DNA of 64,000 bases. Origin: Methanoculleus oceani (lineage in GTDB: Archaea; Halobacteriota; Methanomicrobia; Methanomicrobiales; Methanoculleaceae). The translations under genes and the position numbers were made by a program. Position 1 is the stretch's first letter. Each line of letters opens with the position of its first letter. The stretch is from contig NZ_QFDM01000002.1 in assembly GCF_023702065.1 (NCBI RefSeq), positions 496,001 through 560,000 of the forward strand, read 5' to 3'. Positions 35,327-59,386 of the stretch are shown here, piece after piece. The notes beneath the pieces are model-generated. The model did no database searches and was not told the DNA's origin. It was given only the letters and a program-made list of their open reading frames with translations.

Positions 35327-35818
35327 ATGGAGAGTGGATCGGTTGTGGGGGACCGTGTCTTTATTGCGGAGAACGCAACAGTCATCGGAGACGTGACGCT
35401 CGCCGACGACGTGAACATATGGTTCGGCGCCGTGGTCCGGGGGGACCGGGATACAATCACGGTGGGGGCCGGCTCGAACATCCAGGACAACGCCGTCGTC
35501 CACACCACGATCGGGTTCCCGGTCGGGATCGGGGCGGATGTCTCGGTCGGCCACGGCGCCATCCTGCACGGCTGCACCATCCGTGACCGGGTGCTCGTCG
35601 GGATGGGTGCCGTCGTCCTGAACGGCGCGGTGGTGGGAGAGGGGTCCATCATCGGCGCCGGTGCCGTGGTGACCGAAGGAAAGGAGATCCCGGCGCACTC
35701 GCTGGTCCTCGGCGTGCCCGGCAAAGCCGTCAGGGAGACGACGCCCGAGCAGCAGGAGGGTATCGTCCACAACGCGCGCGAATACGTCAAGCTCGCAGGG
35801 AGGTACCGAAATGGCTGA
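35327..35818 (+). CDS. Gamma-class carbonic anhydrase-like protein
   Basis: This left-handed beta-helix protein of 163 residues matches gamma carbonic anhydrases/acetyltransferase-like hexapeptide proteins. Zinc ligands expected from the family are visible in NAVVHTTIG (about 63) and SVGHGAILHGC (about 78-88), giving three histidines. It starts MESGSVVGDRVFIAENATVIGDV. It overlaps the HdrA-like gene by 8 nt and leads a four-gene operon. CO2/bicarbonate conversion is likely but not proved; some family members lack activity. Confidence 0.85.
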   Translation: MESGSVVGDRVFIAENATVIGDVTLADDVNIWFGAVVRGDRDTITVGAGSNIQDNAVVHTTIGFPVGIGADVSVGHGAILHGCTIRDRVLVGMGAVVLNGAVVGEGSIIGAGAVVTEGKEIPAHSLVLGVPGKAVRETTPEQQEGIVHNAREYVKLAGRYRNG

Positions 35819-37085
35819 CGTCGTGGTCATCGGCGCCGGGGTCGCGGGCATCCAGGCAGCGCTCGACCTTGCCGGCCATAACATCCACGTCCACCTCATC
35901 GAACGCGAACCGACCATCGGGGGGCACATGGCCCAGCTCGACAAGACGTTCCCCACCAACGACTGCTCGATGTGCATCCTCTCCCCGAAGACGGTGGAGG
36001 TGGCCCGGCACCCGAATATTACCATCCACACCTGCTCCGAGGTCGAGTCGGTCGAGGGAGAGGTGGGGAGCTTCCTCGTCCGGGTCAAAAAGCACCCCCG
36101 CTACATCATCGAGGACGAGTGCAACGGGTGCGGGGACTGCATCCGGATCTGCCCTGTGGAGGTCTACAACCGGTTCGACGCCGGCATCGGGGTGCGGAAG
36201 GCAATCTATAAACCCCATGCACAGGCGGTCCCCGATATCGTCGTCAAAGACCGGGAGCACTGCATCGAATGCGGCCTCTGCTACGACGTCTGCGGCAGGG
36301 AGGCGATCCTCCGCGAGGACGAGGAGCGCCTGCTTGAGATAGAGGCGGCGAGCATCGTCGTCGCTACCGGATACCGGACATTTGACGCCCGGAATAAGGC
36401 ACAACTGCGCTATCTCGTCATCCCCGACGTGATCACGAGCCTCGAGTTCGAGCGGATGATCAACGCGAGCGGCCCGACGGGGGGCAAACTGAGGCGCCTC
36501 TCGAACGGCAAACCGCCCCGGAGCATAGCGTTCGTCCAGTGTGTCGGCTCCCGCGACCTCTCCGTCGACCGCCCCTACTGCTCCGGGGTCTGCTGCATGT
36601 ACGCGATGAAGAACGCCATGCTCATCCGGGAGAAGAACCCCGATATCGAGGTCACCGTATTCTACAACGACATCCGGGCTTACGGCAAGGGTTACGAGGA
36701 ATACTACGAGCGGGCGAGGAGCCTCGGGGTCAGGTTCGTCCGCGGGTTCCCGGGCGAAGTGCTCGAAGAGAACGACCACCTGATGATGGTCGCGGAGAAC
36801 ACCGAGACCCGTGAGGTGGAGACGTTCCACCCGGACCTGGTGGTGCTCTCCGTCGGGCTCGAACCGGCCGATGGAGCGGAGGATATCGGCCGGATGCTCG
36901 GTATCCCGAGAGACGAGTCCGGGTTCTTCGGCATTGCCGACCAGAAGACCGGGCCGGTGCTCACGGTGAAGCCCGGGATCTACGTGGCCGGGACGGCCAC
37001 CGCGCCGAGGGATATCCCCGACTCCGTCGCCATGGGCGGGGCGGCGGCGATGCGGGCGTATCTCGACGCGATCAGGGTGGGATGA
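35811..37085 (+). CDS. HdrA-like FAD/iron-sulfur oxidoreductase (short form)
   Basis: This 424-residue protein is related to HdrA, the flavin subunit of heterodisulfide reductase that bifurcates electrons. It has an N-terminal FAD motif VVIGAGVAGIQAALDLA (about 4-20), the HdrA-specific TIGGHMAQLDKTFPTNDCSMCI region (about 38-59), two ferredoxin sites CNGCGDCIRICP (about 104-115) and CIECGLCYDVCG (about 149-160), and FVQCVGSRD (about 242). It is shorter than full HdrA (about 650 residues) and lacks the C-terminal ferredoxin part. No HdrB/C neighbours occur. It is overlapped by carbonic anhydrase and mtnA genes; the acceptor is unknown. Confidence 0.87.
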   Translation: MADVVVIGAGVAGIQAALDLAGHNIHVHLIEREPTIGGHMAQLDKTFPTNDCSMCILSPKTVEVARHPNITIHTCSEVESVEGEVGSFLVRVKKHPRYIIEDECNGCGDCIRICPVEVYNRFDAGIGVRKAIYKPHAQAVPDIVVKDREHCIECGLCYDVCGREAILREDEERLLEIEAASIVVATGYRTFDARNKAQLRYLVIPDVITSLEFERMINASGPTGGKLRRLSNGKPPRSIAFVQCVGSRDLSVDRPYCSGVCCMYAMKNAMLIREKNPDIEVTVFYNDIRAYGKGYEEYYERARSLGVRFVRGFPGEVLEENDHLMMVAENTETREVETFHPDLVVLSVGLEPADGAEDIGRMLGIPRDESGFFGIADQKTGPVLTVKPGIYVAGTATAPRDIPDSVAMGGAAAMRAYLDAIRVG

Positions 37086-54540: not shown

Positions 54541-54925
54541 GGTGAGTCCACCGTTGTCCGGATAGTATCGTACAGGGATGCCTCGTGGTTGTACGGACGC
54601 CCGTAAGCCCGGATACCGGAGTCGGCCCGGGTGCAACGGAACGTGCGAGGCGGTTCGGATACCATCCATCATACCGACTTATTTAAAGGTTACTGACATG
54701 GCTGCGCCGCAACCCCGTGAGTCCCGAAAAGGTCTATGCTGATGCTCCATCTGCTGAAAGTAACCGTCTTTAACCCTCCCGGGGAGCCCTGCGTCCGGAG
54801 ATGACCGGATAGGCCCGCATCCGGACTGCACGCGGCGGCTGAAGGCGTAAAAGAGAAGTCTGCCGCACGACCGCCGGGAACCGACACTATGAAATAGATC
54901 GCATCCCTTCTGACGATTGATCATT

Positions 54926-55558
54926 ATGGCTGTACAGAAGATGGCAACCGCACCGTTGAAGAAGTATGAACTGCCGCCCCTGCCTTACGCACCTGACGCC
55001 CTCGAGCCGCATATCTCGAAGGAACAACTCTCCCTCCACCACGATAAGCACCACCAGGCTTACGTAACCGGGGCGAACGCCGACCTCGAGAAACTGGAGA
55101 AGGCACGGCAGGAAGGCACCGAAGTCGATATGAAAGCGCTGTTGAAAGAACTCTCGTTCAACATCGGCGGCCACGTCCTGCACGACCTCTTCTGGCCGAC
55201 CATGGCCCCGGCAGGGAAGGGCGGCGGCGGAACCCCGGGCGGCGCCCTCGCGGACCTGATCGACGGGGAATGGGGGTCCTTCGACCGGTTCAAGGCGGAG
55301 TTCACGAAGACGGCCGCGAGTGTCGAGGGATCCGGATGGGCGGCGCTGGCGTACTGCACCATGACGGACCGCCCCATGATCATGCAGATCGAGAAGCACA
55401 ACAACCATGTCTACCCCACGTTCCGCATCCTGATGGTGCTCGACGTCTGGGAGCACGCCTATTACGTCGATCACAGGAACAACCGGGCAGGGTTCATCGA
55501 AGCGTTCTGGAACGTCGCCAACTGGGATACGGTGAACAAAAGACTGGAGAACCTGTAA
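54926..55558 (+). CDS. sod: Superoxide dismutase (Fe/Mn family)
   Basis: It dismutates superoxide to protect an anaerobe during oxygen exposure. The 210-residue protein has the metal ligands in [13 protein letters not shown] (His about 38), [15 protein letters not shown] (His about 90) and [12 protein letters not shown] (Asp about 172, His about 176). GGGGTPGG (about 101) lies where Fe/Mn type residues sit, so the metal is uncertain. ATG 54926 is used; TTG 54917 is possible. A T-run follows the stop. Confidence 0.95.
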
Positions 55559-55571: not shown

Positions 55572-55839
55572 ACTCCACCGGAATCCCTGCAGGCCGCAGG
55601 GAATACGTGCGTTTACGGTCCCGGGGGAGAGGCACAGCTCCCCGTTGATTTACGGCCTTTCCGCATCCTCCTGGGGGCGGGAAGGGGGAAACAGCCGCTC
55701 CCGGTGAGATCCCGGTAGGATCCCGGTAGCCGTCAGGGTCCGTTGACCTCACCGGCGACGTTCGACTTCCCCCTATCCAAACTATTAAGTAGTCATCGCA
55801 AGAGGGGTATCCGACGACATTATCAGGAGGGGGGAAGGA
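55572..55839. other. Intergenic region, promoter of the HdrC-HdrB operon
   Basis: 270 bp with no gene. It has a short direct repeat GATCCCGGTA at about 55709-55729 and an AT patch AACTATTAAGTAG at about 55778-55790, the best TATA candidate for the downstream genes. Confidence 0.45.
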
Positions 55840-56052
55840 ATGGATCGATACCGCAGGTTGTATACCCTTAGTTCCGGCTGTGCTTACTCTCCGGAGGGAG
55901 AGCCGACCACCTGTTCTCACGTGCATGGAGCACTGGCCCGAGAGATGATCCCGGGGTTCATCCCTCCTGGACGGGCCTGCCCCCGGCCGTATCGCCCTCC
56001 GGACCAGCTGCACGTGTATCCGGCCGGCGCAGGGATCAGCCATGCTCGGTAG
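55840..56052 (+). CDS. Possible small protein leading the HdrC-HdrB gene, 70 residues
   Basis: The frame starts at ATG 55840, right after a strong AGGAGGGGGG ribosome-binding site, and encodes MDRYRRLYTLSSGCAYSPEG and onward with two cysteines, a histidine pair and a proline/arginine-rich tail. It overlaps the HdrC-HdrB gene start by 11 nt, as a coupled leader would. No family is recognised, and composition after residue 40 looks like random GC-rich sequence. Treat as possible. Confidence 0.35.
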   Translation: MDRYRRLYTLSSGCAYSPEGEPTTCSHVHGALAREMIPGFIPPGRACPRPYRPPDQLHVYPAGAGISHAR

Positions 56053-57490
56053 AGCCCTCCCTGAGCCGGACCTGGTAACTATCCGGGATGCGATCACGGA
56101 GGGGGTTATCGATCGTCTGCTGCACGAGGAAGACCCGCGATTCCGGAACTTCCAGCTCTGCAACGCCTGTGGTTCCTGCACGCCGTACTGCCCGGCACAG
56201 ATCAACGATCCCGAGACGCCCGGAGACCGGGGGTACCTCGCACGGAAGGTGACCGCGGCCCTCCAGGCAGGCAGGCGCCCGGAGATCGACCTCTCCGACT
56301 GCGTCCAGTGCTACTCCTGCGAGACGGTCTGCCCGCGATCCGTCAGCATCGGCGGGATCATCAATGCCGTATACGAGATGGAACACTTGCAGCCGGTCTT
56401 CAGGAGGATGCTTCTCGACCGCGGCGGCCTCCCTCCTTACGCTTTTCTCCCGCTGTACACCGGCAGGGGCCAGTTCAGGAAGTTCGCCGCAAAGGCCATC
56501 CGGCACCCGTATCCGGTGGACGAAAGAGCGGTAGACGAAGTCCGGAGGCTGTTGCTCCACCCCCTCAAGGCGTCGGTCTTCTCCCCGCCCGGACACCCCG
56601 CACCGAAACGACCGCTCACACGTCCGGACCGGGTCTTTCATCTCAACTCCTGCTGCGCCTTCAATTATCCCGGAGCAGACCTCTCGCAGAAGAAGATCCT
56701 TGCCGCGCTCGGCGTCAGGTATGAGACCTCGAGGCTGCAGACCTGTTGCGGCGGTGCTCCTCACTACATGGGCGGCGCCGGCTTTGCGGACCGCCTGCTC
56801 CTCACCGCCCGGAACCTCAGCGTCATCCGGGACGCGTTCGAACCGGACGACAACGTCGCCATCACCGGGATCTGCCCGACCTGCAGCGACTCGTATGCGT
56901 CCACCCTGGAACTGCTCGCCGGGAGCGCCAACAGATCCGTGGTGAACGAAGCGCTGGGCCGGATCGGGCGGGAGGTGAGTGACCCGGAGACGTTTTCGGT
57001 GGCAAACGTCCTCGACCTCTACCCTCTCTACCTCGACGAACTCAGGCAGCTCGTCGAGACGCGGCTCTCGGGGCTGCGCGTCGGAATGCACGTCAGTTGC
57101 CATTACCGGAAGATGAACGGCACCCTCGCCATCCCGCCGGGGCTGCAGAACCTCACGGCGGTCACCGGGGCGAGGGTCGTCGGGAGCGTGATGGAGCACT
57201 ACTGCTGCGGCGGGGTCAAGAACCTTTTCGACCGGCACCAGAAAGGCCGTCCTCTTGAACTCTCCCGGCTGAACCGGCTTGTCTACCAGGATTTTATGCA
57301 CCACCGCCTGGACATGATGGTCGTCGACTGCCCGGGGTGCGAACTGGTGTACGACCACATGGGGGTGCCGGTGCTTCATATCACCGAGCTCCTGGCGCTC
57401 GCGATGGGCGCGGATCCCCATGAGACGGTCTACATTCGGGGCCACATGACATCGCTGAAACCGGCACTCGGCCGGATCGGCCTTCTTTAG
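56042..57490 (+). CDS. HdrC-HdrB fusion (HdrD-like heterodisulfide-reductase-type protein)
   Basis: This 482-residue protein joins an HdrC half with two 4Fe-4S sites, CNACGSCTPYCP (about 40-51) and CVQCYSCETVCP (about 88-99), to an HdrB half with two CCG domains: CCAFNYPG...TCCGG...CPTC (about 204-284) and CHYRKM...CCGG...CPGC (about 353-434). All cysteines for the non-cubane cluster look intact. HdrD of Methanosarcina has the same layout and pairs with a membrane cytochrome, but no HdrE is adjacent here. Glycolate-oxidase-type or thiol:fumarate-type partners are alternatives. It stands alone except for a small possible leader gene. Confidence 0.88.
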   Translation: MLGRALPEPDLVTIRDAITEGVIDRLLHEEDPRFRNFQLCNACGSCTPYCPAQINDPETPGDRGYLARKVTAALQAGRRPEIDLSDCVQCYSCETVCPRSVSIGGIINAVYEMEHLQPVFRRMLLDRGGLPPYAFLPLYTGRGQFRKFAAKAIRHPYPVDERAVDEVRRLLLHPLKASVFSPPGHPAPKRPLTRPDRVFHLNSCCAFNYPGADLSQKKILAALGVRYETSRLQTCCGGAPHYMGGAGFADRLLLTARNLSVIRDAFEPDDNVAITGICPTCSDSYASTLELLAGSANRSVVNEALGRIGREVSDPETFSVANVLDLYPLYLDELRQLVETRLSGLRVGMHVSCHYRKMNGTLAIPPGLQNLTAVTGARVVGSVMEHYCCGGVKNLFDRHQKGRPLELSRLNRLVYQDFMHHRLDMMVVDCPGCELVYDHMGVPVLHITELLALAMGADPHETVYIRGHMTSLKPALGRIGLL

Positions 57491-57778: not shown

Positions 57779-59386
57779 ATGAATAGAGTGGATTCGAGAT
57801 CTATCCAACTACGAGAGACGTTCCGGATCCTTGACGAGCCCGGCGCAGGCATCATCGTAATCGACCGGGATCTGCAGGTGGTCTGGGCAAACACCTGCGC
57901 CACGGATATCCTCTCGACCACCGAGAAGGAGATCCTGGGATTCGATGTCGATCAGGTTCTCGATACACACCTGATGCCGCTCCTGCAGGGGGAAGAAGAT
58001 ACCCGGAGACTCCTCGCCGCGATGCGTGACGGGAACGAGGTATCCGGTCTCGACGTCTCGGTGCAGAGCTCCCGGGGAGAAGAACGGCGGTTCGTCTACT
58101 CCAGCCGGAAGGTACGGCATGAACCGTTCGCCGGGATGTGGGTGCTGTGCATGCGGGACGTCACCGAACGGAAACAGACGAACGAAGGGTTGCTCTCCTC
58201 GAACAGGCAACTTCTGGTCCTCAACCAGATCATGGGGGTATCTGCGTCGTCCCTCTCGCTCGACGAACTGCTCGAGGCATCGCTCTCAAAGACCCTGGAC
58301 CTGCTTGGCTTCGATCTCGGACTGACGTATCTCTTAAATCCGGAACGGACAATGGCACTCACGCGTTACCACCACGCCGTCCCGGAGAACTACCTCGCCC
58401 GCAACAGGACCATCAAGGTCCATCACTGGCCCTGGAACTTTGTCTTCGTTGCCGGACAGCCGCGCTACCTTGAACTGCGGGGCGAGACGGGTACGGTCGA
58501 GGAAGAGATCCTCGCGTCGCTCGGGGTCTCCACGCTCGCCTGCATCCCGATTCTTGCAGAGTCGGTCGTGGTCGGCGCGCTCTTTCTCGGGAGCAGGAAG
58601 ATGGAGGGGCTTGGCGACGAAGAGCGCCGTCTCCTCGAAGCGATCGGGCGGGAGATCGGTTCGGGTGTCCTCCGGAGCATGCTCCACAAACGGCTGGAGG
58701 CAGCTCACCGCGAGACGAACCTCTACCTGGACGTCATGACCCACGACATCAAGAACGCGGAGAACGTCGCGAACCTCTACTGCGATCTCTTACTCGATCT
58801 GCTGGAGGGAGACGCCGCGCAGTATGCGAGGAAACTCAAGGAAAGCGTCAGGAAGAGCACCGGCATCCTCCAGAACGTCTCGACCATCCGCCGCATTCAC
58901 CAGGAGCCGCCCGACCTTAAACCGGTCCACCTCAGCCACGTGATCAGGACCGGGCTCGAACGGACTCCGGAAGCGGATATCTCTTTTGAAGGTACTTCTG
59001 CGGAGGTCTGGGCCGACGATCTGCTCCCCGAGATCTTCGCAAACCTCATCGGCAACGCCGTCAAGTTCGGCGGACCGGATGCCGGGATCGCGATCCGGGT
59101 GGAGGATTGTCCCGAAGAGGACCACACCGTGGTGGTGACCGTGGAGGATACCGGCCCCGGCATCCCTGACGGGATGAAGGAGTCAATCTTCCAGCGGTTC
59201 AGGCAGGGCAAGAACCAGGGGTGCGGGGAAGGACTCGGCCTCTACATCGTCGGGACGCTTATCGAGCGCTACGGCGGCCGGATCTGGGTCGAGGACCGCG
59301 TCTGCGGGAGGCCGGACCTCGGAGCATCGTTCAAGTTCACGCTGCGCGAAGTGGTGCATGCAGGGGCCGACGGGTATGAGGATTGA
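57779..59386 (+). CDS. PAS-GAF sensor histidine kinase
   Basis: The 535-residue soluble kinase has PAS (about 12-125, GAGIIVIDRDLQVVWAN), GAF (about 140-300, with LGVSTLACIPILAESVVVGAL), an H-box LYLDVMTHDIKNAENVANLY (about 317-336) and HATPase with NLIGNAVKFGGP (about 423), EDTGPGIPD (about 456) and GEGLGLYIVG (about 481). The HDIKNAEN H-box is close to that of the 49317 kinase, so both belong to one expanded methanogen group. No response regulator is nearby. Its neighbour is the HdrC-HdrB fusion, but a redox input is inference. A perfect hairpin overlaps its stop. Confidence 0.9.
   Translation: MNRVDSRSIQLRETFRILDEPGAGIIVIDRDLQVVWANTCATDILSTTEKEILGFDVDQVLDTHLMPLLQGEEDTRRLLAAMRDGNEVSGLDVSVQSSRGEERRFVYSSRKVRHEPFAGMWVLCMRDVTERKQTNEGLLSSNRQLLVLNQIMGVSASSLSLDELLEASLSKTLDLLGFDLGLTYLLNPERTMALTRYHHAVPENYLARNRTIKVHHWPWNFVFVAGQPRYLELRGETGTVEEEILASLGVSTLACIPILAESVVVGALFLGSRKMEGLGDEERRLLEAIGREIGSGVLRSMLHKRLEAAHRETNLYLDVMTHDIKNAENVANLYCDLLLDLLEGDAAQYARKLKESVRKSTGILQNVSTIRRIHQEPPDLKPVHLSHVIRTGLERTPEADISFEGTSAEVWADDLLPEIFANLIGNAVKFGGPDAGIAIRVEDCPEEDHTVVVTVEDTGPGIPDGMKESIFQRFRQGKNQGCGEGLGLYIVGTLIERYGGRIWVEDRVCGRPDLGASFKFTLREVVHAGADGYED

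Follow-up and report, generated by a model that had tools for sequence, protein, structure and literature searches.

The fused gene and its product

The window, the whole stretch of DNA that was analysed, comprises 64,000 nucleotides of Methanoculleus oceani, and all coordinates given for the host locus are window positions. The gene under study, here called hdrCB, is an ATG-initiated reading frame of 482 uninterrupted codons. It lies between genes for a superoxide dismutase and a sensor histidine kinase, as originally described from the window. The genes and encoded domains are listed below.

54917-55558, superoxide dismutase gene (sod), upstream neighbour of hdrCB
56042..57490, + strand, hdrCB, encoding a fused HdrC-HdrB-like iron-sulfur protein of 482 aa (reading frame, Pfam and profile matches, fold model)
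56147..56344, + strand, HdrC-like ferredoxin part, residues 36-101, with two CxxCxxCxxxC sets, C40-C50 and C87-C97 (Pfam, alignment)
56630..56890, + strand, first CCG domain, residues 197-283, with C204, C235/236, C278, C281 and an extra C205 (Pfam, phmmer, alignment)
57080..57346, + strand, second CCG domain, residues 347-435, with C353, C388/389, C430 and C433 (best Pfam CCG stretch, alignment)
57779-59386, sensor histidine kinase gene (PAS-GAF), downstream neighbour of hdrCB

Pfam recognised two stretches of the CCG domain PF02754 in the protein (56.6 bits against a gathering cut-off of 20.6) together with Fer4-type dicluster domains, 2x[4Fe-4S]. The protein contains 19 cysteines: C40, C43, C46 and C50; C87, C90, C93 and C97; C204, C205, C235, C236, C278 and C281; and C353, C388, C389, C430 and C433. 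Eighteen are canonical, eight in the ferredoxin part and ten in the CCG domains (five per domain), and C205 is an extra residue beside the first CCG ligand. All 19 were invariant in 19/19 distinct full-length Methanoculleus sequences, and each ligand cysteine was matched in alignment with HdrB/HdrC, HdrD and TfrB. The first ligand of HdrB fell opposite S203 in the phmmer alignment, one residue off, and at C204 in the multiple alignment of all groups. The predicted HdrC-HdrB fusion, with complete cysteine sets for two ferredoxin clusters and for both CCG domains, is thus borne out.

An AlphaFold2 model built from a 20-sequence alignment (mean pLDDT 79.4, pTM 0.86) gave HdrB chains as its best fold matches, with 7bkb_B at E 1e-12 and a target TM of 0.80. 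No likely membrane segment was seen in the protein: the most hydrophobic 19-residue stretch scored 1.28. The nearest profile matches were also HdrB models, at scores far short of their cut-offs (TIGR03288, 64.5 of 345.15 bits; NF041780, 75.8 of 450 bits), and the HdrC model likewise scored far under its cut-off.

Weak matches were obtained to subunits of catabolic dehydrogenases (LdhH 66 bits, GlpC 59, GlcF 46), and GlcF-type proteins at 25-27% identity were the only matches in plasmid records among the 15 of 62 matches listed. An iron-sulfur subunit of the GlcF, GlpC or LutA/LdhH type could account for these similarities, but every score was far under its cut-off and no FAD-oxidase_C gene was detected in the host genome by a search positive in 11/14 control genomes. 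We consider this assignment very improbable, and a GlcF/LutA-type catabolic subunit was rejected on the missing FAD-oxidase_C gene.

Lineage and the redox gene set of the host genome

The placement of hdrCB was examined in a careful maximum-likelihood tree of 38 rows, which covered archaeal relatives only and had long branches. Two 41%-identical proteins from another Methanomicrobiales genus grouped with the Methanoculleus proteins. The sister of this lineage was a set of 13 HdrCB fusions drawn from three further families in the phylum (support 98/94.7). Forced grouping with HdrD was rejected by the AU test (p 9.0e-6), and forced grouping with HdrC+HdrB was marginally rejected (p 0.038). BLASTP of the hdrCB protein against the ORFs of 30 HdrE-family loci gave no match at E<=1e-3; six of these loci carry the HdrD genes used in the tree. 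Judged from the phylogeny and profile scores, hdrCB is an HdrC-HdrB fusion lineage of its own: it is neither HdrD nor a recognised HdrB, and it is separate from the HdrB/HdrC that belong to the main hdrABC complex.

One of the two 41%-identical relatives is followed, about 140 bp downstream, by a NapH-like polytopic iron-sulfur gene (L076 1059-2297, - strand). An A/T-rich promoter-like stretch separates the two genes, and the contig of the second relative ends inside the gene; a membrane partner for these relatives is therefore a lead only.

The host genome is assembled into 3 contigs at 99.24% completeness. Three CCG proteins were found in it: HdrB, TfrB and the hdrCB protein. HdrB sits in an HdrA-HdrB-HdrC-MvhD-like set, so that the full hdrABC set, for which the original prediction had proposed a search, is present. 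TfrB adjoins TfrA. The HdrE-type cytochrome PF02665 gave no match at E<=1 in the host genome, with Methanosarcina acetivorans as positive control, and the absence of HdrE noted for the region extends to this near-complete genome. Matches occurred in 42 genomes of a 148-genome phylum sample, none of them from the Methanoculleus genus, family or order. The accompanying statement that Methanomicrobiales lack cytochromes holds for the host by PF02665 but is not absolute, since extracts of PMC9478090 list the order among those in which HdrDE is found.

The protein had been described as cysteine-complete in the manner of cytochrome-linked HdrD. This likeness extends to domain order, but not to the tree, the AU test or the BLASTP comparison. 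A genuine HdrD paired with a cytochrome that escaped recognition would fit the shared order and cysteines, and extracts of PMC3146512 describe HdrD in Methanocella paludicola, which does not have HdrE; with forced HdrD grouping rejected and no PF02665 gene in the genome, we regard it as extremely improbable. HdrD identity was rejected by the tree and the AU test, under the model used, and by the absence of HdrE.

A different possibility is suggested by a short HdrA-like orphan gene in the window (35811-37085), located directly before mtnA. Its 424-aa product shares 44% identity with the main HdrA of the genome across 408 aa and lacks the N- and C-terminal portions of that protein. The hdrCB protein might act as an alternative HdrBC module docking on HdrA, either the main protein or the orphan, to form a second Hdr complex, bifurcating or not. 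HdrB models are its closest profile matches, in agreement with such a role, yet these scores and that of HdrC are far under the cut-offs and the orphan gene is not adjacent, lying about 19 kb from hdrCB. The short HdrA gene also occurs in G038 (L138 4615-3350, 82%), a genome that does not carry hdrCB, indicating that pairing of hdrCB with this HdrA is not obligatory. An HdrBC-type module is a serious alternative, although an unlikely one.

Gene neighbourhood in Methanoculleus and in related families

hdrCB was present in 21/35 genomes of the genus and in 0/5 other genomes of the family. Among genus genomes at least 90% complete with at most 5% contamination, it was found in 18/24. The usual gene order in loci long enough to judge was acs-GT-sod-hdrCB-PAS-MATE; several of the 14 loci were cut by contig ends.

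The adjacent superoxide dismutase and PAS-GAF kinase genes had been taken as a hint of an oxidative or redox-sensing role. An oxidative-stress enzyme tied to these neighbours would be consistent with their adjacency in every long hdrCB-bearing genus locus examined, and extracts of PMC12713407 connect oxidant resistance in Methanosarcina with deletion of hdrABC and with the thiol state of CoM. However, the adjacency reflects general synteny: sod and the kinase gene remain nearby in three genomes that do not carry hdrCB (G013, G030 and G002). G013 retains about 50 bases from the 3' end of hdrCB, next to a flank that otherwise matches, the signature of a clean deletion. Because only these last bases are left, hdrCB is dispensable, and because it was deleted while sod and the kinase gene stayed, an oxidative role based on neighbours is unsupported. 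hdrCB and the kinase gene also have an A/T-rich promoter-like block each, a further point against this link. The stress reading is improbable, and an oxidative-stress island deduced from the neighbours was rejected, the gene order being genus-wide and surviving hdrCB loss.

Two loci that do not carry hdrCB (L134 and L135) have a different gene between sod and the kinase gene, probably encoding a small lipoprotein, with an opposite-strand start in L135.

Outside the genus, 27 genomes of the phylum sample matched hdrCB at E<=1e-22, and wider context was taken for 13. In 7/13 of these cousin loci the next same-strand downstream gene was MMP16 (CoM synthase ComF), which extracts of PMC12068725 describe as the primary CoM synthase of M. 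acetivorans. The MMP16-linked HdrCB loci are as follows.

L078, L080, L082, L083, L086, L087 and L088

The gap between HdrCB and MMP16 was -14 to 28 bp in six loci and 234 bp in one. Beyond MMP16 lay cysteate synthase in four loci and ComA + ComB in three. Curated NCBIfam cut-offs were passed by all four cysteate synthases and by four MMP16s; the other three MMP16s (L080, L086, L087) were identified by PF01837 and tblastn. The linked fusions belong to families f10 and f28. Of the remaining six loci, three (f12) were free of such genes over the stretch read, one contig ended soon after the HdrCB gene, and two had none in reach. No description of the HdrCB-MMP16 link was found in the literature searched, as judged by titles and the starts of abstracts. 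A search of the PMC12068725 text for Hdr or heterodisulfide returned hdrABC only, the gene-neighbourhood supplement being outside that search.

This arrangement points to the HdrCB family at large as a good candidate redox partner for CoM synthase. By extension, the Methanoculleus protein might supply electrons to, or reduce a persulfide for, MMP16/ComF, as its cousins probably do elsewhere. Its sister position to the cousin set agrees with this, and extracts of PMC12068725 describe as unclear how many electrons the CoM synthase step takes and which sulfur source and species it uses. In Methanoculleus, by contrast, hdrCB and MMP16 lie on different contigs. In the 24 genus genomes MMP16 was over its cut-off in 17/18 hdrCB-bearing and 5/6 hdrCB-less genomes, indicating no hdrCB-MMP16 linkage in the genus, and G007 carries hdrCB with no MMP16 over the cut-off. 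A simple MMP16 partnership within Methanoculleus was rejected for want of co-distribution, and we judge a service to CoM synthase in this genus distinctly unlikely.

The first CCG domain was degenerate in six aligned cousins: the last cysteine was lost in 6/6 and one of the CC pair in 5/6. Methanoculleus hdrCB, unlike those cousins, keeps all cysteines of this domain, suggesting that the chemistry may differ.

Two Methanoculleus genomes that are 99% complete, G011 and G007, had no MMP16 over the cut-off, which suggests CoM auxotrophy or another CoM synthase in these organisms.

Upstream reading frame, proposed function and known systems

A genus-wide upstream ORF whose stop overlaps the hdrCB start is the new observation at this locus. 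The features upstream of hdrCB are listed below.

55775..55794, + strand, block ATCCAAAC(T/C)ATTAAGTAGTC, conserved in the 21-locus alignment, a probable BRE/TATA-type promoter of the upstream ORF and hdrCB
55826..55839, + strand, G/A-rich ribosome-binding-site-like run directly before the upstream ORF, its G-rich run conserved in the 21-locus alignment
55840..56052, + strand, upstream ORF of 70 codons, with a TAG stop at +8 of the hdrCB ATG and an 11-base overlap, found in 21/21 distinct genus loci

The promoter-like block usually lay 52-64 bases before the upstream ATG. Across the 21 distinct loci the ORF ranged from 39 to 70 codons, began with M(D/N/S)(R/Q)(Y/H) and was preceded by the G-rich run. 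In 21/21 its stop (TAG in 18, TAA in 3) lay 8 bases downstream of the A that opens the hdrCB start codon. Across the loci, 0 stops interrupted the frame of the ORF, whereas the two remaining forward frames contained 31 and 26; under a first-order Markov null, the chance of the ORF being open in every locus was about 10^-12 if the loci were independent, though they are not. The third base of hdrCB codon 3 was T in 21/21 even though the codon encodes Gly, Asp, Ser or Ala, and the T share in such codons of eleven hdrCB genes was 9%. This pattern indicates that the stop is under selection inside hdrCB codons 3-4.

The pN/pS of the ORF was about 0.78 over 204 pairs. Frame and stop are better conserved than the peptide; a conserved functional peptide was rejected, because this ratio and the variable length argue against strong peptide constraint. 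We also considered that the conserved first codons might hide a DNA operator (ATACCGC-AG-GCGGTAT-like), a pattern picked out by eye and imperfect in the window and most loci. The upstream ORF probably controls hdrCB translation by translational coupling. hdrCB would have its own transcript, on which the short ORF would be translated first, and termination 8 bases past the hdrCB start would hand ribosomes to a weak hdrCB start.

The reading we favour, tentatively, is that hdrCB encodes a soluble, cytochrome-independent HdrC-HdrB fusion acting as an auxiliary thiol/disulfide (or persulfide) reductase whose translation is coupled to the upstream ORF. The intact main hdrABC, the missing HdrE and FAD-oxidase_C partners and the lack of a strongly hydrophobic stretch count for a soluble auxiliary enzyme. 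A soluble one-electron donor, either ferredoxin or the orphan HdrA-like flavoprotein (35811-37085), would reduce the two ferredoxin clusters of hdrCB. From these, electrons would reach the non-cubane clusters at the two CCG sites, where a disulfide or persulfide belonging to the CoM/CoB thiol pool would be cleaved by reduction. The role would be one of auxiliary, dispensable thiol maintenance rather than energy conservation. We agree with the original prediction that the electron donor and disulfide substrate are unclear.

A bolder proposal, which is speculative and which we think unlikely, joins the two sets of genes: freestanding HdrCB fusions would be the missing redox partner of CoM synthase, and the Methanoculleus protein a freed thiol-repair relative with a supply-sensing leader ORF. 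In other families HdrCB would share one operon with MMP16/ComF and the cysteate or phosphosulfolactate branch, giving electrons (or persulfide reduction) for the last step of CoM synthesis. Ribosome movement along the leader ORF may allow it to sense the supply of cysteine, sulfide or arginine.

Setting aside which proposal holds, a CCG-type protein encoded directly before CoM synthase in several archaeal genera is a concrete candidate for the sulfur and electron question left open in extracts of PMC12068725, and the arrangement precedes either of two alternative CoM pathways. Methanoculleus hdrCB illustrates that heterodisulfide-reductase-like fusions occur outside the HdrABC and HdrDE systems, which calls for caution in naming such genes hdrD. 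The genus-wide leader ORF, with a stop under selection within the coding region for an iron-sulfur enzyme, provides a case in which translational coupling can be tested in a methanogen.

Several known systems resemble hdrCB in part. TfrB of the CoM/CoB fumarate reductase, present in the host with TfrA, has CCG domains as in hdrCB; it differs in its SdhB-type N-terminal part, its flavoprotein partner and its separate branch. HdrD of HdrDE shares the HdrC-HdrB order and two CCG domains with hdrCB but forms a separate branch (AU p 9.0e-6), and HdrE is missing from the host. The Methanocella paludicola genome resembles that of the host in having an HdrD-like gene and no HdrE; extracts of PMC3146512 present its HdrD as a homologue keeping Methanosarcina features, a comparison with hdrCB by description only. 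HdrC and HdrB of soluble HdrABC (PDB 7bkb, 5odc) are the best sequence and fold matches and, like hdrCB, comprise a ferredoxin part and two CCG domains. hdrCB differs from them in being one fused chain of about 24-28% identity with no hdrA adjoining, and in having CCGGVKN for CCGAGGG and SCC for GC at the first ligand. The MMP16-linked fusions (f10, f28) have a degenerate first CCG domain in those aligned and lie beside CoM biosynthesis genes, neither of which applies to Methanoculleus hdrCB; they are nevertheless its sister group (98/94.7) and have the SC, CHY(R/T)K and (L/A)AMGADP features in common with it.
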